The notes beneath the pieces are model-generated. The model had not been told where the DNA came from, ran no database searches, and was given only the letters and a program-made list of their open reading frames with translations. A program made the position numbers and the translations under genes. Shown in pieces: positions 15,400 to 63,205 of a DNA stretch of 64,000 bases (the stretch's first letter is position 1; each line of letters starts with the position of its first letter). Source of the stretch: Photobacterium proteolyticum (GTDB lineage Bacteria > Pseudomonadota > Gammaproteobacteria > Enterobacterales > Vibrionaceae); the NCBI RefSeq assembly GCF_001939735.1, contig NZ_MJIL01000042.1, forward strand, positions 1 through 64,000, in the 5' to 3' direction.

Positions 15400-15401
15400 A
15401 A

Positions 15402-45850: not shown

Positions 45851-45881
45851 AGTCGTCTCCTTTAAACAATACTTCACATTG

Positions 45882-45891: not shown

Positions 45892-46126
45892 AATTATTTG
45901 TGAGTGTATCTATCTATATCTCAATTTGTAAAACAAGGCAAAAATTAATTTACTCAATTGTTAATGCCTGGTTGAGGGTCTGTGGGTTATTACAAAGACT
46001 TAAGTGATTGTTTTTATATGAATAATATCTAGGTTTGTGCGTTTAGAAGTGGTTGTTTGTTTAAAAAATGTAAAATCACGCTTGCTTAAATTCCTGATGA
46101 GTGGAAATAATACAATAAAGCTTTAA

Positions 46127-46138
46127 ATTGTATACAAT
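46127..46138. promoter_or_regulatory. Candidate GntR operator upstream of gcl
   Basis: ATTGTATACAAT is a perfect 12-bp palindrome immediately ahead of the gcl ribosome site, 16 bases before the ATG. Its position suits a repressor that blocks early transcription. Confidence 0.7.
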
Positions 46139-46154
46139 ATGACTGGAGACTGGC

Positions 46155-47930
46155 ATGGCGAGAATGAAAGCAATAGAAGCAGCAGTAGAAGTGTTAAAAC
46201 GAGAAGGTGTTGATCTGGTCTTTGGCGTTCCCGGCGCAGCGATCAATCCTATGTATGCAGCCCTAAAAAAATCAGGCGGGGTAAACCATGTTCTTGCCCG
46301 GCATGTCGAAGGGGCATCACATATGGCAGAAGGCTATACCCGTACCCGTGACGGCAATATCGGGGTATGTATCGGCACCTCAGGTCCGGCTGGTACCGAT
46401 ATGATCACCGGCTTGTATTCCGCCTCGGCCGATTCTATTCCTATTTTGTGTATCACCGGGCAGGCACCACGCGCACGTTTGCACAAGGAAGACTTCCAGG
46501 CCGTGGATATCGAGACGATTGCCGAGCCGGTTACGAAATGGGCAACAACAGTCTTGGAGCCTGCACAGGTTCCGCGGGCTTTCCAGCAGGCATTTCATCT
46601 GATGCGATCCGGACGTCCCGGTCCGGTACTGATTGACCTGCCGCTGGATGTACAGCTGGCGGAAATCGAATTTGATATCGATACCTATGAACCTCTCGAG
46701 GCGTATAAGCCAAAGGCAACCCGGGCACAGGTCGAGAAAGCTGTGAGCATGCTTAATGCCTCGGATAAACCATTGTTGGTAACTGGTGGCGGTGTTATCA
46801 ACTCGGGTGCTTCAGCCTTGCTGCAGCAATTTGCCGAAATTACCGGTGTGCCGGTTATTCCGACGCTTATGGGGTGGGGCGCGTTGCCGGACGATCACGA
46901 ATTGATGGCAGGAATGGTGGGACTACAAACTGCCCACAAATACGGTAATGCCACCATGCTAGAGTCAGATTTTGTGTTCGGGATCGGCAACCGTTGGGCA
47001 AATCGCCATACCGGTTCGATAGATGTATACACCAAAGGGCGGAAGTTCGTTCATATTGATATCGAGCCGACTCAGATTGGGCGTGTATTTTGTCCGGATT
47101 TGGGCATCGTTTCTGACGCCAAGGCTGCACTTGAGCTCTTGGTGGAAGTCGCCCGGGAAATGAAAGACAAGGTACTGCTTAAAGATCGCTCTGACTGGGT
47201 AGCGGAGTGCCAGCAGCGTAAGGCGACTATGCTGCGAAAGACACACTTTGATACCACTCCGGTTAAGCCGATGCGGGTTTATGAAGAGATGAACAAGGTG
47301 TTTGGTGAAGAAACCTGCTACGTCAGCACCATTGGTCTGTCACAGATTGCTGCTGCACAATTTCTGCATGTCTATAAACCGCGCCATTGGATCAATTGTG
47401 GCCAGGCAGGACCGCTGGGTTGGACAATTCCAGCCGCTTTGGGAGTAAGAGCAGCCGATCCGGAGCGCAAGATAGTGGCTATTTCCGGTGATTACGACTT
47501 TCAATTCATGATTGAAGAACTGGCCGTAGGCGCCCAGTTTAATCTTCCTTACATCCATGTATTGGTTAACAACTCCTATCTTGGTCTGATCCGCCAGGCC
47601 CAGCGCCAGTTCGATATCGATTACTGTGTTCAGCTGGCATTTGACAATCAGAATGCGCCGGAGCTGGAGGGGTATGGCGTTGATCATGTAGCCGTAGTTG
47701 AAGGATTAGGCTGCAAGGCGATCAGAGTGACCGACCCTAGCAAGATCTCAGAGGCCTTTATTACGGCACAAACTCTGATGGAGAAGCATCAGGTGCCAGT
47801 GGTGGTGGAAGTGATTCTTGAGCGGGTTACCAATATTGCCATGGGTGTCGAAATTGACAGCATCAACGAGTTTGAAGCACTTGCAGAAGGTGTGGATGAC
47901 GCGCCGACTGCCATTACATTCAATCAGTAA
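46155..47930 (+). CDS. gcl: Glyoxylate carboligase
   Basis: Thiamine-diphosphate enzyme joining two glyoxylate molecules to tartronate semialdehyde with loss of carbon dioxide. The 591 residues contain [15 protein letters not shown], then [14 protein letters not shown]. As in E. coli Gcl, valine occupies the position of the usual catalytic glutamate. The thiamine site [14 protein letters not shown], then [12 protein letters not shown], is also present. GGAG lies six bases before the ATG. It is first in an operon with hyi and the semialdehyde reductase. Confidence 0.97.
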
Positions 47931-47960
47931 CCGGTTTATCGATATTGAAAGGGGGCCAAG

Positions 47961-48743
47961 ATGCCGAAACTAGCTGCAAATCTATCCATGCTGTTTAACG
48001 AACTGCCTTTCCTGGACCGTTTTGAAGCGGCAGCCAATGCCGGATTCCATGGTGTGGAATATCTCTTTCCCTATGACTTTGATGCCATTGAGATTAAACA
48101 GCGCCTGACCCAGTTTGGGCTGACCCAAGTACTGTTTAACCTTCCGGCGGGTAACTGGGAAGAAGGTGACAGGGGAATTGCGGTTGACCCAGGCCGTGTA
48201 GAAGAATTTCGAGCCGGCGTGCCGGAAGCCGTTAGCTGTGCAAAAGCGCTTAACTGTTCACAAGTCAATTGCCTTGCGGGCATTGTTCCGGCTGGTGTGA
48301 GTGAAGAGGTTGCCAATGATACCTTTGTTGCCAACCTCAAGTTTGCAGCCGAGGCTCTGGCAGCCGAAGGTATCAGCCTGGTGATTGAGGCAATCAATAC
48401 CCGTGACATTCCGGGCTTCTTTTTGAACAACACCAGCCAGGCACTCGATGTGTTGGAACAGGTCGGCAGCAACAACCTCAAGCTGCAATACGACATTTAC
48501 CATATGCAGATTATGGAGGGAGATATCGCGACCACTGTCAGTCGAGAATTCGAGCATATTCAGCATGTCCAGTTGGCAGATAATCCAGGCCGCCATGAAC
48601 CGGGAACCGGTGAGATTAACTACGCGTATATGTTCAAGCATTTGGATGAGCTTGGTTATCAGGGGTGGGTCGGCTGTGAGTACAAGCCGAAGACAACCAC
48701 CGAAGCAGGCTTGCACTGGCTAAAAGACTTTAATCAAATCTAA
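47961..48743 (+). CDS. hyi: Hydroxypyruvate isomerase
   Basis: TIM-barrel isomerase (AP endonuclease 2-like) interconverting hydroxypyruvate and tartronate semialdehyde. The 260 residues match family length and motifs: AANLSMLFNELPFLDRF, LVIEAINTRDIPGFFLNN, LQYDIYHMQIMEGD and GCEYKPKTTTEAGLHWL. A GGGGG ribosome site lies close before the ATG. It is the second gene of the gcl operon. Confidence 0.96.
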   Translation: MPKLAANLSMLFNELPFLDRFEAAANAGFHGVEYLFPYDFDAIEIKQRLTQFGLTQVLFNLPAGNWEEGDRGIAVDPGRVEEFRAGVPEAVSCAKALNCSQVNCLAGIVPAGVSEEVANDTFVANLKFAAEALAAEGISLVIEAINTRDIPGFFLNNTSQALDVLEQVGSNNLKLQYDIYHMQIMEGDIATTVSREFEHIQHVQLADNPGRHEPGTGEINYAYMFKHLDELGYQGWVGCEYKPKTTTEAGLHWLKDFNQI

Positions 48744-48750
48744 GGAGAGA

Positions 48751-49641
48751 GTGATGAGTACGATTGCGTTTATTGGTACCGGGATCATGGGTAAGCCTAT
48801 GGCACTGAACTTACAGCAGGCCGGTCACCAACTGGTCTTCTCCGAGCATTTCAGCCAGGCTCCGGCTGAGCTTATTGCCGGTGGAGGCGTTGCTTACGCC
48901 ACCCCAAAAGAAGCGGCGGAAGCTGCAGAATACATCATCCTGATGGTCCCGAATACACCGCAGGTTGAAAGCGTTCTGTTTGACAATAATGGAGTCATCG
49001 AGGCACTTGAAGCAGGCAAGACCGTGATTGATATGAGCTCGATCTCGCCTATTGAAACCAAGTCGTTTGCGGCCAGAGTGAAAGAAACGGGAGCTCAGTA
49101 CCTTGATGCACCGGTGTCGGGGGGCGAGGTCGGTGCGATAAATGGCGTCTTGACCATTATGGTGGGTGGTGATGAATCGGCCTTTGACGCAGCAAAACCC
49201 TTGTTTGAAATTATGGGGCAGAATATCACCCTGGTCGGTGACAATGGGGCCGGCCAAATTTGCAAGGTCGCCAACCAGATCATTGTTGCCCTAAATATCG
49301 AAGCGGTATCGGAAGCTCTGGTTTTCGCTTCCAAGGCAGGAGCCGATCCGGCTCGTGTAAGGGAAGCCCTGATGGGTGGGTTTGCCAACTCGAAGATTCT
49401 TGAAGTGCACGGTGAGCGGATGATCAAAGGAACGTTTGATCCTGGCTTTAAGATTGGACTTCACCAAAAGGATCTCAATCTGGCGATTACCGGAGCAGAG
49501 GCATTGGGGGTGAGTCTGCCAAGTACGGTGATGGCGCAAAAGCTGTTTGATGAGTGCGTGAAACTCGGAGGAGAGGGGTGGGACCATTCCGCGATGATCC
49601 GGGCTATCGAGAAGCTGGCCGATCATGACATTCGGCAATGA
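48751..49641 (+). CDS. glxR: Tartronate semialdehyde reductase
   Basis: Reduces tartronate semialdehyde to D-glycerate with NAD(P)H. The 296 residues include FIGTGIMGKPMALNLQQAGH (cofactor site), APVSGGEVGA, KVANQIIVALNIEAVSEALV with catalytic lysine, and LHQKDLNLAI. It begins 7 bases after hyi, so the two are cotranscribed. The symbol garR would be equally defensible. A glycerate kinase, the expected next step, is not at this locus. Confidence 0.95.
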   Translation: MMSTIAFIGTGIMGKPMALNLQQAGHQLVFSEHFSQAPAELIAGGGVAYATPKEAAEAAEYIILMVPNTPQVESVLFDNNGVIEALEAGKTVIDMSSISPIETKSFAARVKETGAQYLDAPVSGGEVGAINGVLTIMVGGDESAFDAAKPLFEIMGQNITLVGDNGAGQICKVANQIIVALNIEAVSEALVFASKAGADPARVREALMGGFANSKILEVHGERMIKGTFDPGFKIGLHQKDLNLAITGAEALGVSLPSTVMAQKLFDECVKLGGEGWDHSAMIRAIEKLADHDIRQ

Positions 49642-49881
49642 ATAACACTGGTTACTGGCACATAACTTTAGTCTCCTTTGTTATGTGTTCCCGGAGTTTG
49701 ATGAGTGTTATGGGTCATTGGTCGAATACGTCGAGACACAACTAAGTCACGGTTTTTCTGTTGGTGGTGTTTACACTTGTTTTGCTTCGGTTTTTTTATT
49801 TGCCTGATAGGTCCGAGTGTCAGCCGTTATCAGCTTGTCGACCAAAACGGTAGGCGCGGATCCACGGTGTCTGAGCCCTTT

Positions 49882-49915
49882 GGAATAGTACGGTCAGCGT
49901 ACTATTCCTTTTTTT
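49882..49915 (+). terminator. Intrinsic terminator of the gcl operon
   Basis: GGAATAGTACG (49882-49892) and CGTACTATTCC (49898-49908) form a perfect 11-bp stem followed by seven T. It lies about 240 bases past the last stop and touches the 3' end of the convergent regulator gene. Confidence 0.92.
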
Positions 49916-49917
49916 GC

Positions 49918-50649
49918 TTACTTTTTCTTGATCACATCCGAGAAAACCGCGTGAAGATCTTTTGTTATCGCTTCCTCGTCGAGGGCTAGCTTTGACTTGA
50001 TATGTTCAAGGTGGGTTTTCATCAGGCTTATTGCCTTGGCTTTGTCGCCTGCCTCAATTGCATCTAGCAAGTCATTGTGTTCGTCAAACGAGCATTGGCT
50101 GCGTGTGCCAACTTCATACAGTGAAATAATCAGTGACGTCTGAGAGACAATGCTGCGCTGGAAAGAGAGTAGAGGAGAGTTGTTCGCCATATCACCAAGC
50201 TGGATATGGAACTCACCAGACAGGCGGATCCCGCGACCAATATCGCCTTGTTCAAAAGCCTGGTGCTCTTCTTCGACAAGCTGGCGCAAAGAGGCAATTT
50301 GTTCGTTGGTCGCATTATCAACCGCCAGCTCTGTGATTGCCAGTTCCAGTACTTCTCGGGCTTTCAGTACCTGTTTGGCTTCCTCGACGCTGGGGGCCGC
50401 GACGATAGCACCGCGGTTGGGTCGAATATTGACAATCTGCTCGACCGATAAACGGAGTAAGGCGCGACGGATAATGGTGCGGCTGACACCAAAGATTTCG
50501 CCGAGGGCTTCTTCATTGAGTTTGGTATTGGGTGGAAGGCGTTGCTCAAGAATGGCATCAAAGATATGCCCGTAAACAACATCATCCTGGGTTTGACCTG
50601 TTTGAGTCGCGGCTGTTTTTTTCAGCTCTGATTGTTTTTTCTCGGGCAT
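49918..50649 (-). CDS. GntR-family regulator (FCD/FadR subfamily)
   Basis: Repressor of 243 residues. The winged helix (LNEEALGEIFGVSRTIIRRA) is followed by an FCD ligand domain with metal-site histidines in EFHIQL, DEHNDLLDAI and MKTHLEHI. It is encoded convergent to the gcl operon. A TTTGTATACAAA palindrome upstream of its own start matches sites before gcl and aceB. The likely effector is glyoxylate or a related small acid (inference). Confidence 0.93.
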   Translation of the reverse strand: MPEKKQSELKKTAATQTGQTQDDVVYGHIFDAILEQRLPPNTKLNEEALGEIFGVSRTIIRRALLRLSVEQIVNIRPNRGAIVAAPSVEEAKQVLKAREVLELAITELAVDNATNEQIASLRQLVEEEHQAFEQGDIGRGIRLSGEFHIQLGDMANNSPLLSFQRSIVSQTSLIISLYEVGTRSQCSFDEHNDLLDAIEAGDKAKAISLMKTHLEHIKSKLALDEEAITKDLHAVFSDVIKKK

Positions 50650-51084: not shown

Positions 51085-53337
51085 TTACCGGCCTCTGAGT
51101 TCCGCGATAAGCAACCGCTGAGTCAACTTATCTTGGATACTGGTTGGGTTTTCCAAACCAATTCGTTTCAACAATGGCTGTATGGTCTTATCTGGCTTCG
51201 GTGTTGTGATCGCGTTCAGTATGCACTTGATTTTGCCTTTCGGTGTCGCCGTTTTAGCTTTCAGGGCTTTTAACGCTTTACCCAACTGAAGCTCTTCGGC
51301 CGTAAAGCTACAGCCAAACGGGAATGGGCCAAATATATTTTGCTGGGTAAACTTTTGGTAAATGCCTTGAATGGCCTCAGGCGTGTTGTTGCCAAACTCT
51401 ACGGGGATTGTATAGTCTTTGGCGACTTTTCCAGCTGCTTTTGCCTGGTCTAGCAATTGTTGCTGGAAACGAGAGTCGGCGATTTTGATCAGCTCCGTGT
51501 ATACAACGTGATCCGGCTTACCGCGTAAGTCTGCAATACCATATTCAGTAATGACAATATCCCTCAACTGACGTGGAATAGTAGTATGGCCATAGTTAAA
51601 CATGATATTCGACTTCAACTTGCCATTTCGAACGCTACAGCTCCGAAGCTTCATTATAGAACGTGAATCAGGTAGCTGGTGGGATTGGGCTACAAAGTTG
51701 TACTGACCACCGACACCACTGACAACCTGACCGTTTTCCAGTGCATCGGAGATTGCCGAACCGTTCAGGGTAACCATCATTGCGGAGTTAATGAAACGTG
51801 CATGTTTGCGTTGTGCTTGTTTCAGTTGCTGGCTGCCAATGAAGTGGTCATAGAGATCATTGACATAGTTGACGCTGGTCATGCAGAACTTCTTATGGTC
51901 TTCATCACTCAGGTTATTGAGTGCTTCATAAAAGTCTTTCGGCCCGATAAAGAATGCACCGTGCATAACGGCACCACCGCTGAGTTTGTCCCCTAAGCAG
52001 AACTTGGTGATCCACTGCAGTGCTTCGGCGTCACCCAGGTTGGCCTTCATGGTCTGGTGCTGGGCCTGAAGCTGGCCATTGAAGAACTCGACGGAGCCGC
52101 GGAAGACACCGATGCGTTTCAGGTAGCCCACATCTTTTGCCGTCAACTGCTGATGAATCGCGCCATGCTCAAGCAAAGTCAGCAAGGTAGAGACGCTAAC
52201 GTCTGTCGTGATTTTCTTCTTGTTGAGCAAAGTCTGAACGGTGAGATCTTCAAACACTTCTCGCTTAAGGATCCCTGCCTTGTAGAGGTTCATGAAACCA
52301 TCGACCATCAGCTCACTACAGCCATAGAGACCTTCTTCGAAAATACCGCGATCGCCAACGAGACGGGTGACCGGGAACTTCTCGGCAACGTGCAGCTCGT
52401 CCACGATTTGGTTGTAGACAGCATTGTTCTGGTGTCGAAGCAAGGTACTGTAAATCAGTGCACTACTGAGTGAGCCGATCCCAACCTGCAGTGTTCCGCC
52501 ATCCTTAACCAGCGTACTGGCGTAGAAGCCAATCATGTGGTCTTCCGGAGAGATACTGGCATGAGGCGCAGCGAATAAGGCGTAGTCCTTGTTGTCTGGC
52601 TTCAGGTTCTGGTCGAGGACAAAATCAAAAACATTATCGGCCACTTCAGCATGGTTTTGCATGAAAGGCATGTTGGAATTGACTTCCGCTATCATCGCAA
52701 CAGGTTTACCACTGTCTTGCATCTCTTTGAGAACTGGAGCAAAGTCGAGAGCCAAGTCAGAGTTACTGCACAAGCTATAGGTGGTAACGCCATCTATCGT
52801 GCGTTTGGCGACAAGCTGGCCAACGACATTGACCCCTTTATCCAGCAAGTCACGTACGGCATGCGTGTAGTTGGTACTGGTATAGTTTTGCTGTTGCGGA
52901 CTATTGAGGAAGCTTCCGGCCTTAAAGAAAAACTCACTGACGGTGATATTGGACGGAACCGCTCCTTTTCTCAGATCCATGATGTAGTCGATATCAGGGA
53001 CACCTTCGAACTCGCGCTCGACAAAGGGTTCCAGAAAGTTTTTCTCCAGTTGACTTTTACCGACAGGCTTTTCCAGTGTGATTCCGGTTTCGATACGCAG
53101 AGTAATACTTGGATCTGCCTTGGCACGTTGGTACAACGCGTTGATAAAGGCGATGGGTTTACCTATTGCCAACGGTGCGCCAAGAACAATTTCCTTACCG
53201 ACGACCTCAATGATGTGATCGACAAGCTTTTCGGCATCGGCGAATTCCGGTGCTGCTGGTTTGGCCTGTGAAGCCGCATTGGTGGCAACATGGGTAACAT
53301 GGGTAACATGGGTATCAACTAACTCTAATACTGACAT
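51085..53337 (-). CDS. Acetyl-CoA hydrolase/CoA-transferase family protein
   Basis: Moves or hydrolyses CoA thioesters of short acids. At 750 residues it is longer than the usual 430-540-residue members and belongs to a long-form subgroup. Recognisable parts are LVKDGGTLQVGIGSLSSALI (CoA/oxyanion region), HGAFFIGPKDFYEAL, and TEYGIADLRGKPDHVVYTEL in the C-terminal domain. AAGGA precedes the ATG. The N-terminus carries THVTHVTHV from a 9-base tandem repeat. It neighbours the phasin/wax ester genes and could balance acetyl-CoA there, which is inference only. Confidence 0.85.
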   Translation of the reverse strand: MSVLELVDTHVTHVTHVATNAASQAKPAAPEFADAEKLVDHIIEVVGKEIVLGAPLAIGKPIAFINALYQRAKADPSITLRIETGITLEKPVGKSQLEKNFLEPFVEREFEGVPDIDYIMDLRKGAVPSNITVSEFFFKAGSFLNSPQQQNYTSTNYTHAVRDLLDKGVNVVGQLVAKRTIDGVTTYSLCSNSDLALDFAPVLKEMQDSGKPVAMIAEVNSNMPFMQNHAEVADNVFDFVLDQNLKPDNKDYALFAAPHASISPEDHMIGFYASTLVKDGGTLQVGIGSLSSALIYSTLLRHQNNAVYNQIVDELHVAEKFPVTRLVGDRGIFEEGLYGCSELMVDGFMNLYKAGILKREVFEDLTVQTLLNKKKITTDVSVSTLLTLLEHGAIHQQLTAKDVGYLKRIGVFRGSVEFFNGQLQAQHQTMKANLGDAEALQWITKFCLGDKLSGGAVMHGAFFIGPKDFYEALNNLSDEDHKKFCMTSVNYVNDLYDHFIGSQQLKQAQRKHARFINSAMMVTLNGSAISDALENGQVVSGVGGQYNFVAQSHQLPDSRSIMKLRSCSVRNGKLKSNIMFNYGHTTIPRQLRDIVITEYGIADLRGKPDHVVYTELIKIADSRFQQQLLDQAKAAGKVAKDYTIPVEFGNNTPEAIQGIYQKFTQQNIFGPFPFGCSFTAEELQLGKALKALKAKTATPKGKIKCILNAITTPKPDKTIQPLLKRIGLENPTSIQDKLTQRLLIAELRGR
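53289..53315. repeat. Three-copy 9-base tandem repeat inside a coding region
   Basis: CATGGGTAA occurs three times in succession, the last copy ending in T. It encodes Thr-His-Val repeats at the N-terminus of the CoA-transferase-like protein. Copy changes would keep frame. Confidence 0.85.
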
Positions 53338-53724
53338 TTTGCATTCCTTGTTCGATTTTTTTATTGGAGACAGGCATTTTCTTATTATTATCGAATTGTA
53401 TTGTTCGTGTTAAAACTAGAGTCGTCACTCTAGTTTTATAATTTGATGATTGTTCTATTTCAATAAATTGAACCTAGTCACAGTGAGCATATTTAGGATA
53501 AAAAAAATACAATTTGGTGGAGGATTCTAATTTTTGAGGTGAACGGTTTGTGTTTTTGTAACCCATTGAAATATAAGCGTTAATTGTTGGCTTGCAGTAA
53601 TCTGTGATCTTGCTATCAGTTCATCCTCCAGATTAGAAAGAATGATCTAATTCTGATTGTTACGATTTGGCTTGGTTATAAATTCGCTTGAAATACCCAA
53701 CGAGATATCAATAGGGAAAGAGTT
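53338..53724. other. Divergent promoter region with a strong hairpin
   Basis: No gene is seen. TAAAACTAGAGT (53411-53422) and ACTCTAGTTTTA (53427-53438) form a perfect 12-bp stem with a CGTC loop and a TTTTA arm on both strands. It looks like an intrinsic terminator but lies 74 bases upstream of the leftward CoA-transferase start, so it may be an attenuator there. Confidence 0.5.
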
Positions 53725-54090
53725 ATGATTAATCCGATGAATATGATGGGGAATATTAAATCTGTGGCCAATATGGGTGAGAAGTCCCTGAAAAATGTCG
53801 TACTGGCAGGTTTGGGTGCATACAGTAAAGGTATCGAGCAGGCCGGCATGGCTCAGCACTTAGCGACCAAGCGTTTTAATGACTTGGTTGAAAAAGGTCA
53901 GGAGGTGGAAACGGAAACCCTTGAACGCGTTAAAGTGACGCAATCTGCCATTATGAAACGCTCGGAATCACACTTTAATACCGCCTTAAATAAAACTTGT
54001 GGCCTGGATCGCAACCGACTGTCTGATTTTGAAGATAAAGTTGATCGACTGCAGCTTGCAGTGGAAAAGCTAGCGAAAGAAGTTAAATAG
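53725..54090 (+). CDS. Phasin-like granule-associated protein
   Basis: Phasins coat storage granules. The 121 residues are helical: a hydrophobic N-terminal third (SLKNVVLAGLGAYSKGIEQA), then a charged coiled coil ending DRLQLAVEKLAKEVK, as in PhaI/PhaF-type proteins. GGGAAAGAG precedes the ATG. No PHA synthase is nearby. The next gene is a wax ester synthase/DGAT, so the natural partner is a neutral-lipid droplet. Confidence 0.82.
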   Translation: MINPMNMMGNIKSVANMGEKSLKNVVLAGLGAYSKGIEQAGMAQHLATKRFNDLVEKGQEVETETLERVKVTQSAIMKRSESHFNTALNKTCGLDRNRLSDFEDKVDRLQLAVEKLAKEVK

Positions 54091-54171
54091 CAACAACCTG
54101 CGAGTGTTTTGATTCACCGATTATTGTTTGAGGCAAATTGGCCGCCAAGCAAGTTAGATAAGGAACATCAT

Positions 54172-55842
54172 ATGCCAAGTTTGTCTCTTCTTGACTTCAG
54201 CTTCATTGCCTTTGAAACGGCAAAAACACCAATGCACGTTACCGGATTGGTCATTCTAGAGCCGCCGGAAGAACATGCGGCGACATATGCTCAGGACTTA
54301 TACAGTCACTTTTTGCAGCAGACAGAGACAGTTCCTCCGTTCAACTGGAAGTTAAATTGGTCGCTGACAGGAAAACCTCGTTGGGATGTCATGCGCAATG
54401 TTAATTTAGACGATCATTTGCGGATCACCATGCTGCCGTCGCCGGGAACGGAGCATCAGCTCCAGCAGGTTGTCGGCCGTCTTCACAGTCAGGTATTGGA
54501 TCGCAGCCGCCCTATGTGGGAACTGTGGGTAGTCGGTGGACTTGAAAACAATCGTGTCGCCCTTGTGATGAAGATCCACCACTCAATGGCTGATGGTGTG
54601 CGTGCAAGCCGTATCTTTACCGATAGTTGTTCGGCCGATGTTGATAATTCGTTCGAGAATAAACCGTTTTGGCAATGTGACTTGCGCAAGAGCAGGTCTC
54701 AGCGCCGTGAAGAAACGCATCTGACTGACATGGTGATGAAGACGGCAATGGCTGCATCGAAGCAGATATCACTGATCCCGTCTATGTTCCGGCTGGGTAG
54801 CAAACTGGCGTTAAAAGCGGTGAAACTTGCTGACTGTGATTTGAAAGTGCCGTTTACCGCCCCCAAGACCCCGTTCAACCTGAGTCCGAAGCGAAGCCGG
54901 GCAGTGAGCCTAGGCAACTTTTCTATCGGCCAGCTAAAGCATATCAGCCGGATCACCGGTGCATCGATGAATGACATCTTGTTTACCGTGAGTGATATCG
55001 CGTTGAACCGCTATCTTATTGATCGTGCCATACCGCTGAGAAAACCGTTGGTAGCGATGATGCCTATAAACCTGCGTGGTAAAGGTAGCGGTGGTGTCGA
55101 AGTCAAGGGCAATAAAATGTCGGTTGGACATGTGGAGCTTGGCAAGCCCCACCTGAGTGCTTTGGAAAGGCTAGAAGCGATCCAGCACGCGACACTAGAT
55201 CTGAAGAAAGAAGCTTTGAATATCTCACCGGATGCTTATGTAAACTATTCCTTGCTGGTCAATGGTGTTTCGCTGTTTAGTGGTAAGTTTGGCTTGAATA
55301 ATTTTATTCCACCTGCGAGCAACCTGCTTATCTCTAACGTTCCCGGTGCGAAAGAGAAGCTCTATTTCATGGGCGCCAAAGTACAGGAGCAGTACCCGGT
55401 ATCGCTTTTGATGCCAGGTCAGACGCTTAACATCACTTTCTTTAGTAATGCCGATACCATGTACTTCTCGCTGGTGGCTTGTAACCAGTCACTGCCTGGT
55501 TTTGAGGTGATAGCTGATTATATGGTTGAAGCGTTGGAAGATATTGAGGCAGAAGTGATGAATACTGCGGTATCAGCAGTTTCAGAGCAGCTTGAATTTC
55601 GCGAGGATGAAACGCTTGCGGTTGAGACGGCAGTAGAAGCGGCGAATTATTCATTAACGCCTGAAGATGAAGAGTTCGAGATCCTTTTTGCCGAGAAACA
55701 GAAAAAAGTCGAAGAGCTTGAGAAGCAACTGGCGAAGCTGACGGAGATGCTGTCGGCTACTGTCGAGGTTGATCCTCAGGCGACAGCGAAAAATCAGGAT
55801 AGCCTTGAAGACTCAGAGAAGAAAGCAGCAAGTCTTCACTAG
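54172..55842 (+). CDS. Wax ester synthase / diacylglycerol acyltransferase (WS/DGAT)
   Basis: Esterifies fatty alcohol or diacylglycerol with acyl-CoA. About 557 residues. The N-terminus LSLLDFSFIAFETAKTPMHV is typical of the bacterial family. The catalytic motif HHSMADG lies near residue 137, and later motifs include PLVAMMPINLRGKG and SNVPGAKEKLYFMGAK. A C-terminal extension of about 90 acidic, coiled-coil residues (AEKQKKVEELEKQLAKL) goes beyond the core. The ATG at 54172 has GGA about seven bases upstream. It follows the phasin gene by 81 bases on the same strand. Confidence 0.93.
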   Translation: MPSLSLLDFSFIAFETAKTPMHVTGLVILEPPEEHAATYAQDLYSHFLQQTETVPPFNWKLNWSLTGKPRWDVMRNVNLDDHLRITMLPSPGTEHQLQQVVGRLHSQVLDRSRPMWELWVVGGLENNRVALVMKIHHSMADGVRASRIFTDSCSADVDNSFENKPFWQCDLRKSRSQRREETHLTDMVMKTAMAASKQISLIPSMFRLGSKLALKAVKLADCDLKVPFTAPKTPFNLSPKRSRAVSLGNFSIGQLKHISRITGASMNDILFTVSDIALNRYLIDRAIPLRKPLVAMMPINLRGKGSGGVEVKGNKMSVGHVELGKPHLSALERLEAIQHATLDLKKEALNISPDAYVNYSLLVNGVSLFSGKFGLNNFIPPASNLLISNVPGAKEKLYFMGAKVQEQYPVSLLMPGQTLNITFFSNADTMYFSLVACNQSLPGFEVIADYMVEALEDIEAEVMNTAVSAVSEQLEFREDETLAVETAVEAANYSLTPEDEEFEILFAEKQKKVEELEKQLAKLTEMLSATVEVDPQATAKNQDSLEDSEKKAASLH

Positions 55843-55868
55843 AATAGAAAGCAGTCACGTAAATAAAG

Positions 55869-55897
55869 GCCATATAACGCTATGTTGTATGGCTTTT
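55869..55897 (+). terminator. Intrinsic terminator of the phasin-WS/DGAT unit
   Basis: GCCATATAAC and GTTGTATGGC pair (one G-U) around GCTAT, followed by six T. It starts about 27 bases after the stop. Confidence 0.88.
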
Positions 55898-55938
55898 TTA
55901 ATGTTCGAGAGAATGATGCGGTTTTGTGGTTGAATTGA

Positions 55939-56085
55939 AAGAGGTCCAATGTAGTTCCTTACTTGGTTAAGGATTTTATCGATGAGACGGTATGGCGGGA
56001 TAACAAAGGGATAATCAATCGTGATCGTAAGACTCAAAAATGGGATTACGAGCATTGGTATCGCAAGCCTGCAGTGAAGCAGTAA
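55939..56085 (+). pseudogene. Possible gene remnant (48 codons, no start)
   Basis: After a TGA the frame reads 48 codons of protein-like composition (VVPYLVKDFIDETVWRDN; then QKWDYEHWYRKPAVKQ) before TAA. There is no ATG or GTG at a suitable place and no ribosome site. It lies between two terminators. I do not recognise the source. Chance is possible. Confidence 0.3.
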
Positions 56086-56100
56086 TAATTGCGTTTATCA

Positions 56101-56124
56101 AAAAAGGCCGCAAAAGCGGCCTTT
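56101..56124 (-). terminator. Intrinsic terminator of the reductase-ACBP operon
   Basis: GGCCGC and GCGGCC form a 6-bp GC stem with an AAAA loop (TTTT on the minus strand), and six T follow on the minus strand. It lies about 25 bases past the acyl-CoA-binding protein stop. Confidence 0.88.
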
Positions 56125-56146
56125 ATACTGTCATTATCCGAAGGAA

Positions 56147-56413
56147 TTATGCGTAAGCTGCAGTCAGCTCAGTGACCTTATCAACATATTGCTGCATTGC
56201 TGTTTCAGCATCCATGCCTTTCAGGCCTTCCCACGCCTCGTACTTGGCAGCGCCTTTGAAATCAAACATGCCAGGACGTTTACCGTGTACATCACCATCC
56301 GTTGCCTGCTTGTACAGAGAATACAGTGCGAGCAACTCTTCATTAGATGGGCGCTTGGTCAGTTTTTTTACGTCTAGTTGTGCTTGTTCAAAGTTTTCTT
56401 TTAGATCAGCCAT
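56147..56413 (-). CDS. Acyl-CoA-binding protein
   Basis: Small cytosolic carrier of long-chain acyl-CoA, mainly known from eukaryotes and present in some bacteria. The 88 residues match the four-helix family, with ALYSLYKQATDGDV, RPGMFDFKGAAKYEAW and a final helix. It lies 58 bases downstream of the fatty acyl-CoA reductase on the same strand and probably feeds it or the wax ester synthase. Confidence 0.95.
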   Translation of the reverse strand: MADLKENFEQAQLDVKKLTKRPSNEELLALYSLYKQATDGDVHGKRPGMFDFKGAAKYEAWEGLKGMDAETAMQQYVDKVTELTAAYA

Positions 56414-56471
56414 GATTTTGTCCTTAAATAGTTGTTACCTAGCCACACCCTTGAGACGAGTGTTTGGTTGA

Positions 56472-58463
56472 TTAAAGATGAATGCCTTTCAGCAGGGCAG
56501 AGAATGCAATGAGCTCTGCCGAAGAGGCTTTTTCGCTTCTTTGTTCTTTCCCTTGATCACTTTCTTTGGAGTCAGGGAACATTCGGAAACTGCTGTTCAT
56601 GATGATTTCAGCCAGTTTCGGGAATAGTGCGTGAAGCAACGAACCAAAAATACCGAGGTTGGTCGCAATACGTTTTGGCTTGTCGATAATCGCAGTAGCC
56701 AGTAGATCGGCCGCTTCATCTGGTGTCAGTGTCGGTACGGACTTATAGATTTTGGTTGGTGCAATCATAGGTGTTGCAACCAGCGGCATGTTGATGGTGG
56801 TGAAGTTCACGTTCAGGTCTGAGTACTCAGATGCCGCACAGCGGGTGAATGCGTCCAGCGCTGCCTTTGAAGCCACATAGGCAGAAAAGCGCGGCGCATT
56901 GGTCAACACCCCGATAGACGAGATATTGATAACATGGCCGCCACCCTGGGCTTCCATGCTTGGTAGCAGACCAAGGGTCAGTTTCAGTGAACCGAAGTAG
57001 TTCAGCTGCATGGTTCGCTCGAAATCGTGGAAGCGATCGATTGAGTTAGCAATAGAGCGACGAATAGAGCGTCCGGCGTTATTGATGAGGATATCGACGC
57101 GGCCATGTGCTTCGAGTACATCTGCTACCAACTGCTCAACCTGATCGATAGCAGAAAGATCGCACTGGAAGGTGTGCGCAACGCCACCACGTTTCTCGAC
57201 TTCAAGCTTGGTATTGGCCAGCTTTTCTTCATCACGGGCCACCAGAATCATTTCAGCGCCATTTTCAGCCAGTTTGAATGCTGTTGCCTGTCCGATCCCT
57301 GAGCTGGCACCGGTGATCATAATGATCTTGTTGCTGACGCGTGCGCTTAGGCTGCGATCTCCCGAGATCTCAGGATCAAGATGACGTTCCCAGTAGTCCC
57401 AGATAGCGGGCGCATATGTTGGCAGGCGAGGGCACTCGATACCAGAGCCTTTTAGCGCCTTCTGCGTTTCACGGCAATCGAACTCAGTCGGGTACGTGAA
57501 GAATTTGAGTACATCCGAAGGGATCCCTAAATCTCTCAGCGTCACGTCTGTGATTTGCTTGATGGTCGGCAGAGACAAAATGGCACTCTTGACCTGGTTC
57601 GGTACCAGACCGAATAATCTGGCATCAAGTCGAAGCGCCATACGCGGAGCGTGACCAGCCTCGGCAAAAATATTCATGATTTCGCCGGAGCGATAAGGTT
57701 TCGGATCGGTAAGATGGAAACACTGGCTGTCGAGCCCATCCTTATGGGCAATATGGTCCAGTGCGTTGACGACGTAGTCGACCGGCACAATGTTCAGGCT
57801 TCCGCCTTCAAGACCAATTGTCGGTACCCAGGCTGGCAGCACGGCGCGAATACGCTGGATCATTTTGAATAGGTAGTACGGACCGTCTACACGATCTGCA
57901 ACACCTGTTTTGGAATCACCGATCACCATGCCTGGGCGGTAGATCCTAAACGGTATCTTACACTGTTCGCGGACCGTCTTTTCAGCCAGATGCTTGGTTG
58001 AAAAGTAAGGATGTTCGAGGTGTTCGGCTTCCTCAAACATATCTTCGCGAAAGTGCCCCTCGTATAACCCGGCAGCCGCGATTGAACTAATGTGATGGAA
58101 GCAACCCGCATCCAATGCTTCGGCGGCTTCTACTGCATTTTGAGTTCCTTCAATGTTCACTGCCTCTTGAGCCTCGGCAGTCGCATTCAGGTCATAAATT
58201 GCAGCTAGATGGAAGAAATGATGAATCTTTCCTTTTAATGCTGCGACTGTACTCTTGGTTAATCCTAGTTGAGGCTGTGTCAGATCACCCATGATTGGCA
58301 CAATACGATCTGCCGGAACATCCCATTCCGATATACAGGTTGTCAGTTTTTCTTGGGCCTTTTCATTCCTGCAAAGGATATAGATAGTTCCTTCGCGCTT
58401 GAGTAGTTTGGTGATGAGATTGCGGCCTAAAAAACCCGTTCCACCTGTTAGAAAATATGCCAT
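56472..58463 (-). CDS. Fatty acyl-CoA reductase (alcohol-forming, two SDR domains)
   Basis: Reduces acyl-CoA through the aldehyde to fatty alcohol. The 663 residues resemble the Marinobacter wax-ester reductase over their whole length, from memory of that sequence. The N-terminal extended SDR has GGTGFLGRNLI and YFSTKHLAEK; the C-terminal classical SDR has TGASSGIGQATAFKLAENG and YVASKAALDAFTR. The ending FSALLKGIHL also fits. A strong AAGGAG precedes the ATG. With the WS/DGAT it supplies both steps of wax ester formation. Confidence 0.94.
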   Translation of the reverse strand: MAYFLTGGTGFLGRNLITKLLKREGTIYILCRNEKAQEKLTTCISEWDVPADRIVPIMGDLTQPQLGLTKSTVAALKGKIHHFFHLAAIYDLNATAEAQEAVNIEGTQNAVEAAEALDAGCFHHISSIAAAGLYEGHFREDMFEEAEHLEHPYFSTKHLAEKTVREQCKIPFRIYRPGMVIGDSKTGVADRVDGPYYLFKMIQRIRAVLPAWVPTIGLEGGSLNIVPVDYVVNALDHIAHKDGLDSQCFHLTDPKPYRSGEIMNIFAEAGHAPRMALRLDARLFGLVPNQVKSAILSLPTIKQITDVTLRDLGIPSDVLKFFTYPTEFDCRETQKALKGSGIECPRLPTYAPAIWDYWERHLDPEISGDRSLSARVSNKIIMITGASSGIGQATAFKLAENGAEMILVARDEEKLANTKLEVEKRGGVAHTFQCDLSAIDQVEQLVADVLEAHGRVDILINNAGRSIRRSIANSIDRFHDFERTMQLNYFGSLKLTLGLLPSMEAQGGGHVINISSIGVLTNAPRFSAYVASKAALDAFTRCAASEYSDLNVNFTTINMPLVATPMIAPTKIYKSVPTLTPDEAADLLATAIIDKPKRIATNLGIFGSLLHALFPKLAEIIMNSSFRMFPDSKESDQGKEQRSEKASSAELIAFSALLKGIHL

Positions 58464-58735
58464 TCGCTCTCCTTAATTGATGGGCAATATTCTTTAATTC
58501 CTTTAAGAAATATAAGTTACACTGGTCAGAGTTGTTGTCTTTAGTTAATGGGCAATTTTATTAAATAGATCACCTTTTTATTTTGAAAAATGGCAAATAT
58601 TTCAATTTCATTAAGGAAATAAATCAAAAATAGGTAAATTAATCTATGATTGATGGTGTGAGAAATAATCAATATCAATGACTGGTTTTTTATAAATTGG
58701 CTGGCAAATCATCGCGATTAACTTGAGAGGGTATT

Positions 58736-60373
58736 ATGTATGATTTCATAATTGTGGGGGCAGGTTCGGCGGGTTGTGTACTTGCTAATAGGTTGTCTTC
58801 AGATCCGTCAATAAAGGTTTGCCTGGTTGAAGCCGGACCGAAAGATTCAAGTGTTATGGTTCATGTGCCACTTGGCATCATCGGCATGATGCATTCCAAG
58901 AAAATGAACTGGCGTTACTACACCGAGGAGGAATCAAACCTTAACAACAGGCAGCTATTCTGGCCGCGTGGAAAAACCCTTGGTGGTAGCAGCGCTTCAA
59001 ACGCGATGTGTTATATACGTGGACACGCCTGTGACTACGATGAATGGGCGTCGTTCGGTAATGAAGGGTGGAGTTACAAGGAGGTCTTACCATATTTTAA
59101 GAAATCTCAGCATCAGGAGCGAGGTGGCGATGCCTATCATGGCTCACATGGCCCATTAAATGTGTCTGATTTGAGGATAAAAAATCCGCTGTCAGAGGCG
59201 TTTATTAAGGCGGCCAAACAAGCCGGGCATCGATATACAGAGGATTTTAATGGCGCTGATCAGGAAGGAGTTGGCTACTATCAGGTCACCCAGAAAAACG
59301 GCCAGCGCTGCAGTACTGCCGTAGGCTATCTGAGACCGGCAGAGGAGAGGGATAATCTAACTGTTATTACGGATGCGTTGACAACAAGAGTACTGTTTGA
59401 GGGAACCAAAGCGACGGGAATTGAATATCGCAAAGAGGGAACAACGCATACGCTTCGTTGTAGTGGTGAGGTGCTGCTCAGTGGCGGGGCCATAAACAGT
59501 CCACAGTTGCTGTTGCTTTCGGGGGTTGGAAAGAAAGAGCAGTTAGATCAACATGATATTCCTGTTGTGTGTGATCTGCCCGGCGTAGGAGAGAACATGC
59601 AGGATCACCTTGATGTGCTGGCAGTAACTCGTGAAAGAACCTTCTACTCTGTGGGCTTTTCCCCTGTTGCTTTGCTGCGCTCGATAAAAGGGATCTTCGA
59701 TTATATCTTGTTTAGGAAAGGGAATTTCACCAGCAACATTGCTGAAGCCGGTGGCTTTGTGAAAAGCTCTCCAGAGCAGGCTGTGCCGGATGTACAGTTT
59801 CATTTCTCTCCCTGTTTTTTGGATAACCATGGCCTGAATCTGTGGCAAACGGTAAGGCATGGCTACTCGTTACATGCGTGTAATCTACGCCCGAAAAGCC
59901 GAGGAAGGCTGATGCTTCGGGATAGTGATCCGGCGACGCCGCCAGTTATCCAAGCGAACTATCTCGACAATGAAGAAGACATTGCTGTGATGGTAAAAGG
60001 GATTAAGCTCTCTCGTGAAATCCTGAAACAGCCTGCTTTTGATCACTACCGAGGTGAAGAAGTATTCCCCGGTAAAGAGGTGCAGACAGATGAAGAGCTT
60101 GAAGCTTTTATCCGTCGTAAAGCCGAATCGATTTATCATCCTGTTGGTACGTGTAAGATGGGACAAGATGAAATGGCTGTTGTGGATCCCAGGTTAAAAG
60201 TCCGGGGCGTTTCGGGCTTGCGTGTGGTCGATGCTTCAATAATGCCGACATTAATTGGCGGTAATACTAATGCACCAACAATAATGATTGCTGAGAAAGC
60301 GGCGGATATGATCTTGGAAGATTATATAAAAAAGTCCCTCAATGAAGAGCTGATAGCCGCCGAGGTTTTATAA
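58736..60373 (+). CDS. GMC-family FAD alcohol oxidoreductase
   Basis: Flavoenzyme oxidising alcohols, close to choline dehydrogenase/AlkJ-type members. The 545 residues include [17 protein letters not shown] at the N-terminus, [19 protein letters not shown] (signature 1), [17 protein letters not shown] (signature 2) and the catalytic-histidine region [10 protein letters not shown]. In this neighbourhood a long-chain alcohol substrate is plausible. It is divergent from the acyl-CoA reductase with 272 bases between starts, where I see AT-rich sequence only. Confidence 0.93.
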
Positions 60374-60386
60374 TTATTTATCATCG

Positions 60387-60429
60387 TAATTTCAGGCTGT
60401 AAATATATAGCCTGAAATTATTTTTATTT
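60387..60429 (+). terminator. Intrinsic terminator of the GMC gene
   Basis: TAATTTCAGGCT (60387-60398) and AGCCTGAAATTA (60409-60420) form a perfect 12-bp stem with a 10-base loop, followed by TTTTTATTT. Confidence 0.88.
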
Positions 60430-60643
60430 AAATTAATAATTAGAGTGATTTTTCTAATTTTTATTGTCATACTTGTTTTGCAATTTTCTATGATTTTATT
60501 TTGAACCCTTCATATTATATTTAACTTCTGACAAACACTCTCTTCAATATTTAAAAATAAGCCCTTCTTCTTGTGAAGTGCTTGATTTCAGTATTCAGCT
60601 AATCAATGATGGTTAGTAAATGTGGCTTAACAAAGGTTGAAGT

Positions 60644-61738
60644 ATGATTTCTAGGAATAACCTAAGTCAGAAGTTTCAGGTGCTGATGGATGAGCTATCG
60701 TCAAAAGTGTCTGAAAACAGAGAGGTGGCGAAGGAAAAGCTTGGCGACTTCATAGAGCATGGCCTCCCGCCCGTTCAAAGTGACGCAGTCATTGCCACAT
60801 TAAATGGCATTCTCGGTGATTATCTGGTTCAGCGAGACAGCCGTCTGAAGCAGGAAATGGCTATTCGTGATCAGCGCCAGACCCTGAGCCTTGAAACTGA
60901 CATATTGAGTCAGCAGCTTTCCGACTGTAGTGAGCGCATTGTATTGTGTGTGCATGGCTGGTGTATGAATGATGTCCAGTGGAAGCGCAAGGATCACGAT
61001 CATGGCCGAAGCTTGGCAAAATACGGATATACGCCGATTTATTTACGATATAACACCGGCTTGCATATCTCGACCAACGGCGAAGCATTTGCGTTAATGC
61101 TCGAACGACTTATTTCAGCCTGGCCGTGCCAAGTGAAGGAGCTGGTGATTATCGGCCATAGCATGGGCGGGCTGGTAACCCGAAGCGCGTGCTACTATGC
61201 CCAGCAACATGAACTTGACTGGCTATCGACTCTTCGCACTTTCATCACCCTTGGTACCCCGCATAATGGCGCTCCCTTGGCGCAGCTGGCCTGTTGGATA
61301 GATGGCAGACTTGCTGATGCTCCATACTTGAAGACACTTAATAAGTTGTCTGAAATTCGTAGTAGCGGGACGAAAGACTTGAGCCAGGGATTCGTTCGCC
61401 ATGGGGATTGGGAGAGGGCAGGACAGGCTCCTCATTTGCCGGGACGTCCGTTATTACCTGAGGGCGTGGTTTGTTGTGCTATTGCGAGTTGCCTTGGCCA
61501 GAATTTAAAGGATGAGAATAATCTCAAGTTGGGTGATGGGCTGGTGCCGGTTTCAAGTGCTTTGGGCGAATCGACAGCTGATCAGCGAGCGCTGAACTAT
61601 CTTGACGATAATAAGTGGGTAGGCGTCGGTATTAACCATCTGGACCTGTTAACGCACCCGCAGGTAACCGGAAAAGTAGAGCAGTGGGTACTGTCGAATA
61701 GCCCAGATACTCGTGACGAGCTCCCCCCCAGTAGCTAA
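60644..61738 (+). CDS. Alpha/beta-hydrolase, lipase/esterase-like
   Basis: The 364 residues comprise a helical N-terminal region of about 95 residues and then an alpha/beta-hydrolase domain. VLCVHGWCMNDVQWKR supplies the oxyanion region, VIIGHSMGGLVTRSA the nucleophile serine, and GDGLVPVSSALG, then GINHLDLLTH the likely acid and histidine. TLGTPHNGAPLAQLA resembles PGAP1/triacylglycerol lipase proteins. There is no signal peptide, so it acts inside the cell. Its position next to wax ester genes suggests ester mobilisation, which is unproven. Confidence 0.87.
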   Translation: MISRNNLSQKFQVLMDELSSKVSENREVAKEKLGDFIEHGLPPVQSDAVIATLNGILGDYLVQRDSRLKQEMAIRDQRQTLSLETDILSQQLSDCSERIVLCVHGWCMNDVQWKRKDHDHGRSLAKYGYTPIYLRYNTGLHISTNGEAFALMLERLISAWPCQVKELVIIGHSMGGLVTRSACYYAQQHELDWLSTLRTFITLGTPHNGAPLAQLACWIDGRLADAPYLKTLNKLSEIRSSGTKDLSQGFVRHGDWERAGQAPHLPGRPLLPEGVVCCAIASCLGQNLKDENNLKLGDGLVPVSSALGESTADQRALNYLDDNKWVGVGINHLDLLTHPQVTGKVEQWVLSNSPDTRDELPPSS

Positions 61739-61887: not shown

Positions 61888-62676
61888 ATGATCATGAAGA
61901 AGAACATACTCTTTCTTTGTACCGGTAACTCTGCGCGTTCACAGCTGGCTGAGGCATTGATGCGTCACATGGCAGGAGAGCACTATCTGGTAATGAGTGC
62001 CGGTACGAAGCCGGAAGGCGTCGACCCGCGTGTCTATCAGGTGTTGGCTGAGCAAGGGGTATGTGCAGATAATCTGCAAAGCCTTTCTGCGAGTGATGTT
62101 CATGATCAACACTTTGATATCGTGATTACCTTGTGTGACAAGGCCAGCAACGAATGTGCCCTGTTCGCAGACTCAGATGCACTCATTCACTGGGATTTTA
62201 AAGATCCTAAGCCTGTGGCGGGGGTAGACAGTTTCCGAGAAACCTTCGAAGGGCTAAGAGACAGGATCGCGCTATTCCTCATGCTTAACGGCGAGGCGCA
62301 GGATAGTGTTGTGGGCCCGGTGGAGTTGTTCAAGATTATGAGCGACCCACTTCGTCTTCGGATCCTAATGCTGATTGAGGACGAGCAGGCGCTCAGTGTT
62401 GGCGATCTGACCAAGGTACTTGACGTGAGTCAGCCGAAAGTGTCGCGGCATCTTGCCTTATTACGTGATGGCGGGGTACTTCAAGATCAGCGCGAAGGGT
62501 TGTGGATCTTCTATCGCCTGGCCGATCATCTTCCGGTGTGGATACGTCACACGCTATCAACAGTACGAAACGGTAACCCGGGTATGATCAATCAGGAAAA
62601 ACTAAAATTAACTCAGATCACCGACAGGAAAAAGCCCGGATTTAGCCTAAAAGCCAACAACCAGGTTGGCGTTTGA
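61888..62676 (+). CDS. Arsenate reductase-ArsR regulator fusion
   Basis: Fusion of two functions usually encoded separately. Residues about 1-135 are a low-molecular-weight phosphatase-type arsenate reductase (FLCTGNSARSQLAEALMRH with the P-loop cysteine; a further cysteine in ITLCDKASNEC). Residues about 140-225 are an ArsR winged helix (FKIMSDPLRLRILMLIEDEQ, then LDVSQPKVSRHLALLRDGG). A polar tail follows. The start is ATG 61888 or 61894. It is followed by a phosphatase and a GAPDH, an arsenic-resistance setting. Confidence 0.92.
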   Translation: MIMKKNILFLCTGNSARSQLAEALMRHMAGEHYLVMSAGTKPEGVDPRVYQVLAEQGVCADNLQSLSASDVHDQHFDIVITLCDKASNECALFADSDALIHWDFKDPKPVAGVDSFRETFEGLRDRIALFLMLNGEAQDSVVGPVELFKIMSDPLRLRILMLIEDEQALSVGDLTKVLDVSQPKVSRHLALLRDGGVLQDQREGLWIFYRLADHLPVWIRHTLSTVRNGNPGMINQEKLKLTQITDRKKPGFSLKANNQVGV

Positions 62677-62710: not shown

Positions 62711-63205
62711 ATGTCTAACACGCATCCATTTTGGACATTACCGCTAGTAGGTGGTGCTAAATTGTTACTTACGCCATGTCCGGGTACCAAAGAGGCCAAC
62801 CTGAAAGATTCATTGGCTCAGTTGAAAGACGCCGGGGCAACAGCGGTACTGACAGCTTTGGAGCCGGGTGATCTACCGGGTGAAGGACTGAGTCAGCTGG
62901 CAGAAGAGTGCAAGGCTCTGGGGCTGAAGTGGTTCCACTTACCTATCGAAGATGACTGTGCTCCTGGTGACGAATTTAATGCTAACTGGCCTGAGGCCAA
63001 CAAAGCGGCTCAGTCTATGTTAGATGAGGGTGGGGCATTAGTTATTCACTGCATGGGCGGATCTGGCAGAACGGGGCTGATTGCTGCCCGTATTATGCTG
63101 GACCGTGGTGTTGAGCTTGAAAGTGCGATTGAGCAGATCCAGGCGCTGCGCCCGGGGGCTTTCACGCGCCAGCCACATATTGACTATATCCAGCAGTATA
63201 AATAA
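62711..63205 (+). CDS. Dual-specificity/tyrosine phosphatase-like protein
   Basis: Cysteine phosphatase of 164 residues. The active-site loop is HCMGGSGRTG, with a candidate general acid in LPIEDDCAPGDEF. It is 34 bases downstream of the ArsC-ArsR fusion on the same strand and is followed by a terminator, so the two form a short operon. It is possibly part of arsenic resistance; its substrate is unknown. Confidence 0.9.
   Translation: MSNTHPFWTLPLVGGAKLLLTPCPGTKEANLKDSLAQLKDAGATAVLTALEPGDLPGEGLSQLAEECKALGLKWFHLPIEDDCAPGDEFNANWPEANKAAQSMLDEGGALVIHCMGGSGRTGLIAARIMLDRGVELESAIEQIQALRPGAFTRQPHIDYIQQYK

Follow-up and report, generated by a model that had tools for sequence, protein, structure and literature searches.

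The closest described systems are the polyhydroxyalkanoate (PHA) granules of Pseudomonas and the wax ester loci of other bacteria. The TetR protein PhaD of Pseudomonas is a direct regulator of the phaC1 and phaIF operons, according to the available part of that account (PMC7204398). In scaffolds from sediment metagenomes, the available sections of Galvan et al. 2023 (PMC10351704) place genes for an acyl-CoA-binding protein (ACBP), a short-chain dehydrogenase/reductase (SDR) resembling fatty acyl-CoA reductase (FAR), a PHA-system protein and one phasin near ws/dgat, the gene of wax ester synthase/diacylglycerol acyltransferase (WS/DGAT, below also WS). Most of these scaffolds are betaproteobacterial, and ACBP or FAR-like genes lie near ws/dgat on some gammaproteobacterial scaffolds too. 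Because similar neighbours are reported there, the association of WS/DGAT with ACBP, a FAR-like enzyme and a phasin is not new. Here we analyse such a locus in a stretch of 64,000 nucleotides from Photobacterium proteolyticum (contig NZ_MJIL01000042.1, positions 1 to 64,000; hereafter the window), which belongs to a genome of 6.48 Mb. The original prediction had named seven genes of wax ester synthesis and turnover at 51085-61738 in a Vibrionaceae-like background. All seven are open frames that match the expected families above the Pfam cut-offs, and the background was correctly recognized: the host is a Photobacterium, and the nearest named relative of its WS/DGAT is that of P. alginatilyticum, with 98% identity. 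From sequence comparisons we consider it likely that the locus forms the synthesis part of a regulon dedicated to wax-ester granules, coordinated via the inverted repeat AATTAGA-N8-TCTAATT and most likely by a TetR protein encoded at a second locus.

The catalytic motifs of the predicted synthesis enzymes are intact. The WS/DGAT contains both Pfam domains, WS_DGAT_cat and WS_DGAT_C, scores above the TIGR02946 cut-off and carries the HHxxxDG motif, whose residues H157, H158, D162 and G163 (numbered from a TTG at 54109) are invariant in 10 sequences including that of the window. The ATG at 54172, conserved in relatives, is a likelier start than this TTG. Among PDB entries the protein matches the WSD enzymes 7nxg (E 6e-64) and 6chj (E 4e-63), the latter of which we take to be the Marinobacter enzyme. 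The reductase of the window, FAR-A, consists of an NAD_binding_4 and an adh_short domain with two YxxxK pairs. Y153/K157, Y529/K533 and the glycines of both nucleotide-binding motifs are invariant in six sequences including the window's. A two-domain architecture is found in the Maqu_2220-type FAR as well, and the two-domain family NF005539 is presumably alcohol-forming. The ACBP match to PF00887 spans profile positions 2-76 of 76. The phasin is marginal for PF05597 (29.8 bits, cut-off 28.8; 25.1 bits and thus under the cut-off in a six-frame search) and clear for NF047773 (77.7 bits, cut-off 35).

The remaining three enzymes are candidates for turnover. Residues S173 (in GHSMGG), D298 and H332 of the hydrolase form a lipase triad and are invariant in 17 sequences including that of the window. 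The protein resembles BlEst2 (profile E 1.8e-7), and a Foldseek search with its structure model finds BlEst2 and bacterial lipases (predicted local distance difference test, pLDDT, 70.9). The GMC oxidoreductase contains the N- and C-terminal GMC_oxred domains and reaches 702 bits for the choline dehydrogenase subfamily NF002550. Its assignment as BetA, a choline dehydrogenase, was rejected, since it scores 599 bits for the equivalog TIGR01810, which requires 732.1; from the gene context it may instead oxidize fatty alcohols. The protein first called a CoA hydrolase/transferase has the C-terminal domain PF13336 above its cut-off and is now described more closely as a putative class I CoA-transferase-like protein, divergent and 750 residues long. 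Its profile matches 4-hydroxybutyrate CoA-transferases, and the Pfam scan reported no N-terminal domain. A conserved SELMVDG stretch, the candidate for the catalytic Glu segment, aligns colinearly with SEMISDG of 3gk7, with a weak segment score of 2.3 bits, and the low-confidence model (pLDDT 63.7) gives Foldseek matches to RipA and 4-hydroxybutyrate CoA-transferases (E 1e-12 to 1e-8). It thus appears to be a relative of these transferases with large additions, and the role proposed for it below is conditional.

WS/DGAT is present in 27 of 150 Vibrionaceae genomes, namely 25 Photobacterium, including that of the window, and 2 of another genus, probably Vibrio. The synteny survey that the original prediction had proposed was run on the WS loci of all 24 other WS-positive Photobacterium. 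The genes for the CoA-transferase-like protein, phasin, WS, ACBP, GMC enzyme and hydrolase keep order and strand in 19 of the 24, with FAR in place in 11 of these 19, so the objection that the neighbours might not be conserved falls away. A chance gene cluster is ruled out by this conservation of order and strand. Four other loci retain the CoA-transferase-like gene and WS alone, the ACBP-FAR-GMC-hydrolase genes being located elsewhere in both of those that were checked, and one locus is without the CoA-transferase-like gene and the phasin next to WS. The CoA-transferase-like gene stands beside WS in 23/24 loci. A plasmid origin was also rejected: the WS relatives in 39 plasmid records are all below 60% identity, which gives no sign of recent plasmid transfer. 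In several relatives a lipoprotein-like gene of 547-931 codons lies between WS and ACBP (L029:10910-13705, L043:6052-8844, L033:10775-12418); the window is without it.

The locus had been called compact. This holds for the conserved block and not for the system as a whole, which is spread over several loci linked by the shared operator-like repeat. The second locus, on contig C99 of the same genome, encodes a second FAR (FAR-B, 55% identical), a DUF2505 protein, a TetR protein (PF13972), an alpha/beta hydrolase, two PF05597 phasins (PhaI- and PhaF-like) and a PHA_gran_rgn protein. Its hydrolase is closest to hormone-sensitive lipases (HSL), under the NCBIfam cut-offs, and one of its phasins ends in a lysine/alanine/proline-rich tail of ~98 residues, a tail type known from PhaF. 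In Vibrio relatives (L053; L054 of G058; L074 of V. gelatinilyticus) the genes for GMC, ACBP, FAR, DUF2505, TetR and the HSL-like hydrolase are contiguous, and the cluster continues with WS, two phasins and PHA_gran_rgn, with a glutathione peroxidase gene inside. Since the core genes of both loci form one cluster in these relatives, the second locus belongs with that of the window. In V. maritimus, locus L075 has fragmented frames for WS, FAR and glutathione peroxidase, which may point to decay or to a poor assembly.

The distribution of the genes among Photobacterium was compared in 52 genomes of the genus, 50 of which (not G150 and G151) entered the WS search. A full-length FAR of A or B type occurs in 23 of 25 WS-positive genomes (not in G097 and G079) versus 1 of 25 WS-negative ones, G144. 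The assembly of this genome, in 780 contigs, reaches 85% completeness, and the contig with its FAR (L093) also has GMC and ACBP pieces 97-100% identical to those of the window; G144 may therefore miss WS because its assembly has a gap there. PF05597 matches at E <=0.001 occur in 24/25 WS-positive genomes versus 1/25 WS-negative, again G144; they are mostly second-locus phasins, and many window-type phasins, including that of G097, miss this threshold though tblastn finds them. PHA synthase is present in 25/25 WS-positive and 24/25 WS-negative genomes and in 51/52 of the whole set. The PF09361 phasin is found in the same 51 genomes, ~245-310 bases from the synthase where coordinates were compared. 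From these distributions, PF05597 tracks the wax-ester synthase and not PHA synthase. In 148 of the 150 Vibrionaceae, DUF2505 and WS are either both present (26) or both absent (122); the exceptions are G097 with WS only and G144 with DUF2505 only. In a class sample of 370 genomes, FAR is found in 13, WS in 20 and both in 10; PF05597 occurs in 28 (13 with WS), and in 16 (12 with WS) above the family cut-off.

A shared inverted repeat emerged from a comparison of the intergenic regions of the window locus, the second locus and a third phasin gene. A 22-base consensus is found at two places in the window at <=5 mismatches and at none in simulated sequence, a count that is no independent test, since sites of this kind had served to build the consensus. 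It had few matches in the second locus and was replaced by the looser 14-position pattern AATTAGA-N8-TCTAATT. With <=1 mismatch, this pattern occurs at six places in the window's own genome versus one for the reversed control. Two of the places are in the window locus, one is ahead of the third phasin gene, one is ~70 bases before a glutathione peroxidase gene, and the remaining two (contigs C59 and C83) precede genes without evident link. Nine genomes together contain 42 places versus 18 for the reversed control. Ahead of the window phasin, repeat B is the best 22-mer of the intergenic region, with a mean column identity of 0.95 versus 0.60 for the whole region in 12 loci.

The repeat is found upstream of the phasin in 20/20 phasin-bearing loci, including the window, and upstream of WS itself in all five genomes without a local phasin, each time with at most one of 14 positions mismatched; the phasin/WS operon is thus preceded by it in 25/25 loci. 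Upstream of the hydrolase it is found in 15/23 loci at <=2 mismatches. The hydrolase promoters of L042, L044-L047, L052 and L091 are without it at this threshold within 250 nucleotides, and L042, L044-L047 and L091 contain a 22-base consensus site irrespective of distance to the hydrolase gene. At <=3 mismatches it precedes the PhaF-like phasin in 8/8 loci, FAR-B in 2/6, the HSL-like gene in 1/8 and PHA_gran_rgn in 1/7, and it is absent at this threshold before the ArsR fusion gene that follows the hydrolase (n=23) and the PhaI-like phasin (8). The dual-specificity phosphatase gene is preceded by it in 3/20 loci at <=2 and 4/20 at <=3 mismatches.

The glutathione peroxidase promoters provided a separate test, as this gene was not used in deriving the repeat. 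The repeat lies <=250 bases upstream in 15 of 25 WS-positive Photobacterium at <=2 mismatches and in 20 of 25 at <=3. At <=3 mismatches none of 15 others has it, nor any of 13 when two genomes outside the WS search are dropped (p 0.0003); the shuffled-sequence rate is 0.5% at <=2 and 5% at <=3 mismatches. Without the three previously known positives (G000, G037, G119), the count is 12/22. Relatedness contributes to this contrast, because the glutathione peroxidase genes of the WS-positive genomes also resemble that of the window's species more closely. Weaker sites with 2-3 mismatches stand before phasins in the Vibrio loci, in L110 and L111 (family f2, same order) and in L103 (f63), and such sites in other Gammaproteobacteria could hint at a circuit older than the family. 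The third PF05597 phasin gene (L082:8750-11130; G000 contig C95) has the repeat immediately ahead of it and lies behind a lipoxygenase gene (PF00305) of the same orientation. A link between lipid granules and oxylipins is possible from this arrangement.

Probably the best candidate to bind AATTAGA-N8-TCTAATT is the TetR protein encoded at the second locus. Its recognition region is invariant in 8 homologues, and relatives with an invariant ISPGNLYYH stretch adjoin WS or FAR in Vibrio and in G211, G273, G453, G242, G338 and G470.

In the scheme that we infer, which covers all enzymatic activities, the stored lipid and the identity of the repeat-binding protein, FAR would convert acyl-CoA to fatty alcohol, ACBP would carry acyl-CoA, and WS/DGAT would join the alcohol with acyl-CoA. 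The granule coat would consist of the window phasin together with the PhaI- and PhaF-like phasins of the second locus. The window lipase and the HSL-like enzyme would break the ester down to alcohol and fatty acid, after which the GMC enzyme could oxidize the released alcohol and the CoA-transferase-like protein could recover or release CoA. A repeat-binding regulator, most likely the second-locus TetR protein, would coordinate the phasin-WS operon, the lipase and the PhaF-like phasin, and might also govern the lipoxygenase-adjacent phasin and glutathione peroxidase.

Two other functions of the locus were weighed. WS/DGAT enzymes are often bifunctional, and the enzyme might chiefly make triacylglycerol, with FAR serving another purpose. 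The same-order genomes G273 and G453 would fit this, as they contain WS, phasin, TetR and a DUF3336-patatin protein and are without the two-domain FAR, and so would P. sanctipauli (G097), which has WS without a full-length FAR. We regard it as improbable in view of the tie between the two genes: FAR accompanies WS in nearly all WS-positive Photobacterium, occupies its position in 11 of the 19 complete blocks, and its 13 bearers in the class sample include 10 with WS. That the locus is instead a PHA accessory cluster, whose phasins and regulator serve PHA granules, would fit the phasins, PHA_gran_rgn and TetR, an arrangement reminiscent of Pseudomonas pha, and the near-universal PHA synthase of the genus. 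Such a role is made very unlikely by the distributions of PF05597, PF09361 and PHA synthase: 24/25 WS-negative genomes have no PF05597 match while PHA synthase is present there, and the synthase adjoins its own PF09361 phasin. Wax-ester synthesis and turnover stays the best reading, supported if incompletely by the intact motifs, FAR in 23/25 WS-positive genomes and the block kept in 19/24 loci.

Several observations weigh against the proposed wax-ester regulon. At <=3 mismatches the repeat is absent before GMC (n=23), FAR-A (14) and ACBP (23), as well as before TetR (6) and DUF2505 (6). The pattern does not exceed its reversed control in G143 (2 versus 4) and G089 (3 versus 4), and no site was found in the phasin-bearing loci L142 and L143. 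Among 35 WS loci of 18 other gammaproteobacterial genomes, some clipped by contig ends, phasin and TetR are present in just 3, and none has a full-length FAR near WS. P. sanctipauli combines WS with a window-type phasin and the repeats, yet is without full-length FAR, DUF2505 and the phasin pair. The CoA-transferase-like gene and the window-type hydrolase were not found in the Vibrio clusters, nor were the two phosphatase genes. The co-occurrence counts, those of the class sample included, ignore shared ancestry, and the co-occurrence in Photobacterium may stem from few evolutionary events. The triacylglycerol alternative counts here as well, and the structure models are moderate for the hydrolase and poor for the CoA-transferase-like protein. 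Two of these points, the TetR promoters without the repeat (0/6) and the repeats of P. sanctipauli where DUF2505 was not found, would also fit a repeat to which one or more other regulators bind in place of TetR, the ArsR-phosphatase fusion at 61888 being an example. This fusion is conserved beside the hydrolase. TetR is present in the Vibrio, G273, G453 and G211 loci, in which repeat-like sites stand ahead of phasins and the fusion was not found, and we find a different regulator rather unlikely; such a regulator would be compatible with the enzymatic part of the wax-ester regulon.

Coordinates are collected in Table 1. The fusion of low-molecular-weight (LMW) phosphatase and ArsR accompanies the hydrolase gene in the WS loci of 20/24 relatives and in two relocated blocks that were checked. 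Adjoining the locus, at 44228-50649, are a malate synthase-like gene and genes for glyoxylate carboligase, hydroxypyruvate isomerase, tartronate semialdehyde reductase and a GntR/FCD regulator; these names were read off the translations, the profile scan having covered GntR alone. An anaerobic reductase with molybdopterin oxidoreductase, ferredoxin-like and membrane subunits, likewise read off translations, lies at 12352-16899.

Table 1. Genes and operator-like repeats of the wax ester locus and its conserved neighbours (window coordinates).
Feature	Coordinates	Strand	Evidence
CoA-transferase/hydrolase-like protein, class I, 750 aa, N-terminal and central additions	51085..53337	-	PF13336 (AcetylCoA_hyd_C) 137.8 bits; divergent from phasin
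Inverted repeat A, operator-like, AACTAGAGTCGTCACTCTAGTT	53414..53435	.	mean column identity 0.83 vs 0.60 for whole intergenic region, 12 loci
Inverted repeat B, operator-like	53631..53652	.	starts 94 nt ahead of phasin start
Phasin, 121 aa, leads phasin-WS pair	53725..54090	+	PF05597 29.8 bits; NF047773 77.7 bits
WS/DGAT, HHSMADG motif, C-terminal extension ~90 aa	54172..55842	+	TIGR02946 360 bits (cut-off 310)
ACBP, 88 aa	56147..56413	-	PF00887 106.9 bits
FAR-A, two-domain fatty acyl-CoA reductase, 663 aa	56472..58463	-	NF005539 972 bits (cut-off 549)
GMC oxidoreductase, putative fatty-alcohol dehydrogenase	58736..60373	+	PF00732/PF05199
Inverted repeat C, operator-like	60438..60459	.	starts 206 nt ahead of hydrolase start; exact AATTAGA-N8-TCTAATT match
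Alpha/beta hydrolase, lipase-like, putative wax-ester lipase	60644..61738	+	PGAP1/DUF676; S173/D298/H332
LMW-phosphatase/ArsR fusion, conserved neighbour	61888..62676	+	PF01451 + PF01022
Dual-specificity phosphatase-like protein, conserved neighbour	62711..63205	+	family match and conservation beside locus

More tentatively, marine Vibrionaceae may possess a complete wax-ester organelle programme, in which a circuit of PhaD/PhaIF type serves wax esters beside and apart from the PHA granules. This circuit would have an operator of its own, and its regulon, with glutathione peroxidase and the lipoxygenase-adjacent phasin among the members, would couple storage to lipid-peroxide protection. If true, a well-studied marine family, cultured Photobacterium strains included, would join the wax-ester producers. 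PHA and wax ester in one cell, with one phasin family each, would form a two-organelle system for phasin specificity. A neutral-lipid regulon would further have a concrete operator and, unexpectedly, a tie to peroxide defence.

How this locus relates to known systems can be stated as follows. It resembles AtfA/Acr1 of Acinetobacter in that FAR residues 375-662 are 52.8% identical to an A. baumannii SDR, which we take to be probably Acr1; the FAR here has an extra N-terminal reductase domain. The Marinobacter pathway (FAR MAQU_2507; PMC10351704, available sections) likewise comprises a fatty acyl-CoA reductase and WS/DGAT, and the window WS is homologous to 6chj and 7nxg. Unlike in that pathway, FAR, ACBP, WS and phasin form one block here, which carries operator-like repeats and is linked to a second locus. 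The locus had also been called little described. This stands for the family, in that the open-licence literature on wax esters in Vibrio and Photobacterium, as far as its texts were available, yielded no description of wax-ester synthesis in Vibrionaceae, and it does not stand for the gene association, which the available sections of Galvan et al. 2023 already report near WS/DGAT. Words beginning with 'vibrio' are absent from the main text of that paper, and its available sections describe neither a regulon nor a set of lipase, GMC, CoA-transferase and repeats as here. The mcl-PHA cluster phaC1ZC2DFI of Pseudomonas shares a TetR regulator (PhaD), a phasin pair and a hydrolase, according to the available part of its description (PMC7204398). 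It differs in its link to PHA synthase, the linkage here being to WS/DGAT and FAR, and the TetR protein is likened to PhaD by arrangement. With a TetR gene and a repeat present, the putative granule regulon of Photobacterium would thus resemble the PhaD-PhaIF circuit of Pseudomonas.

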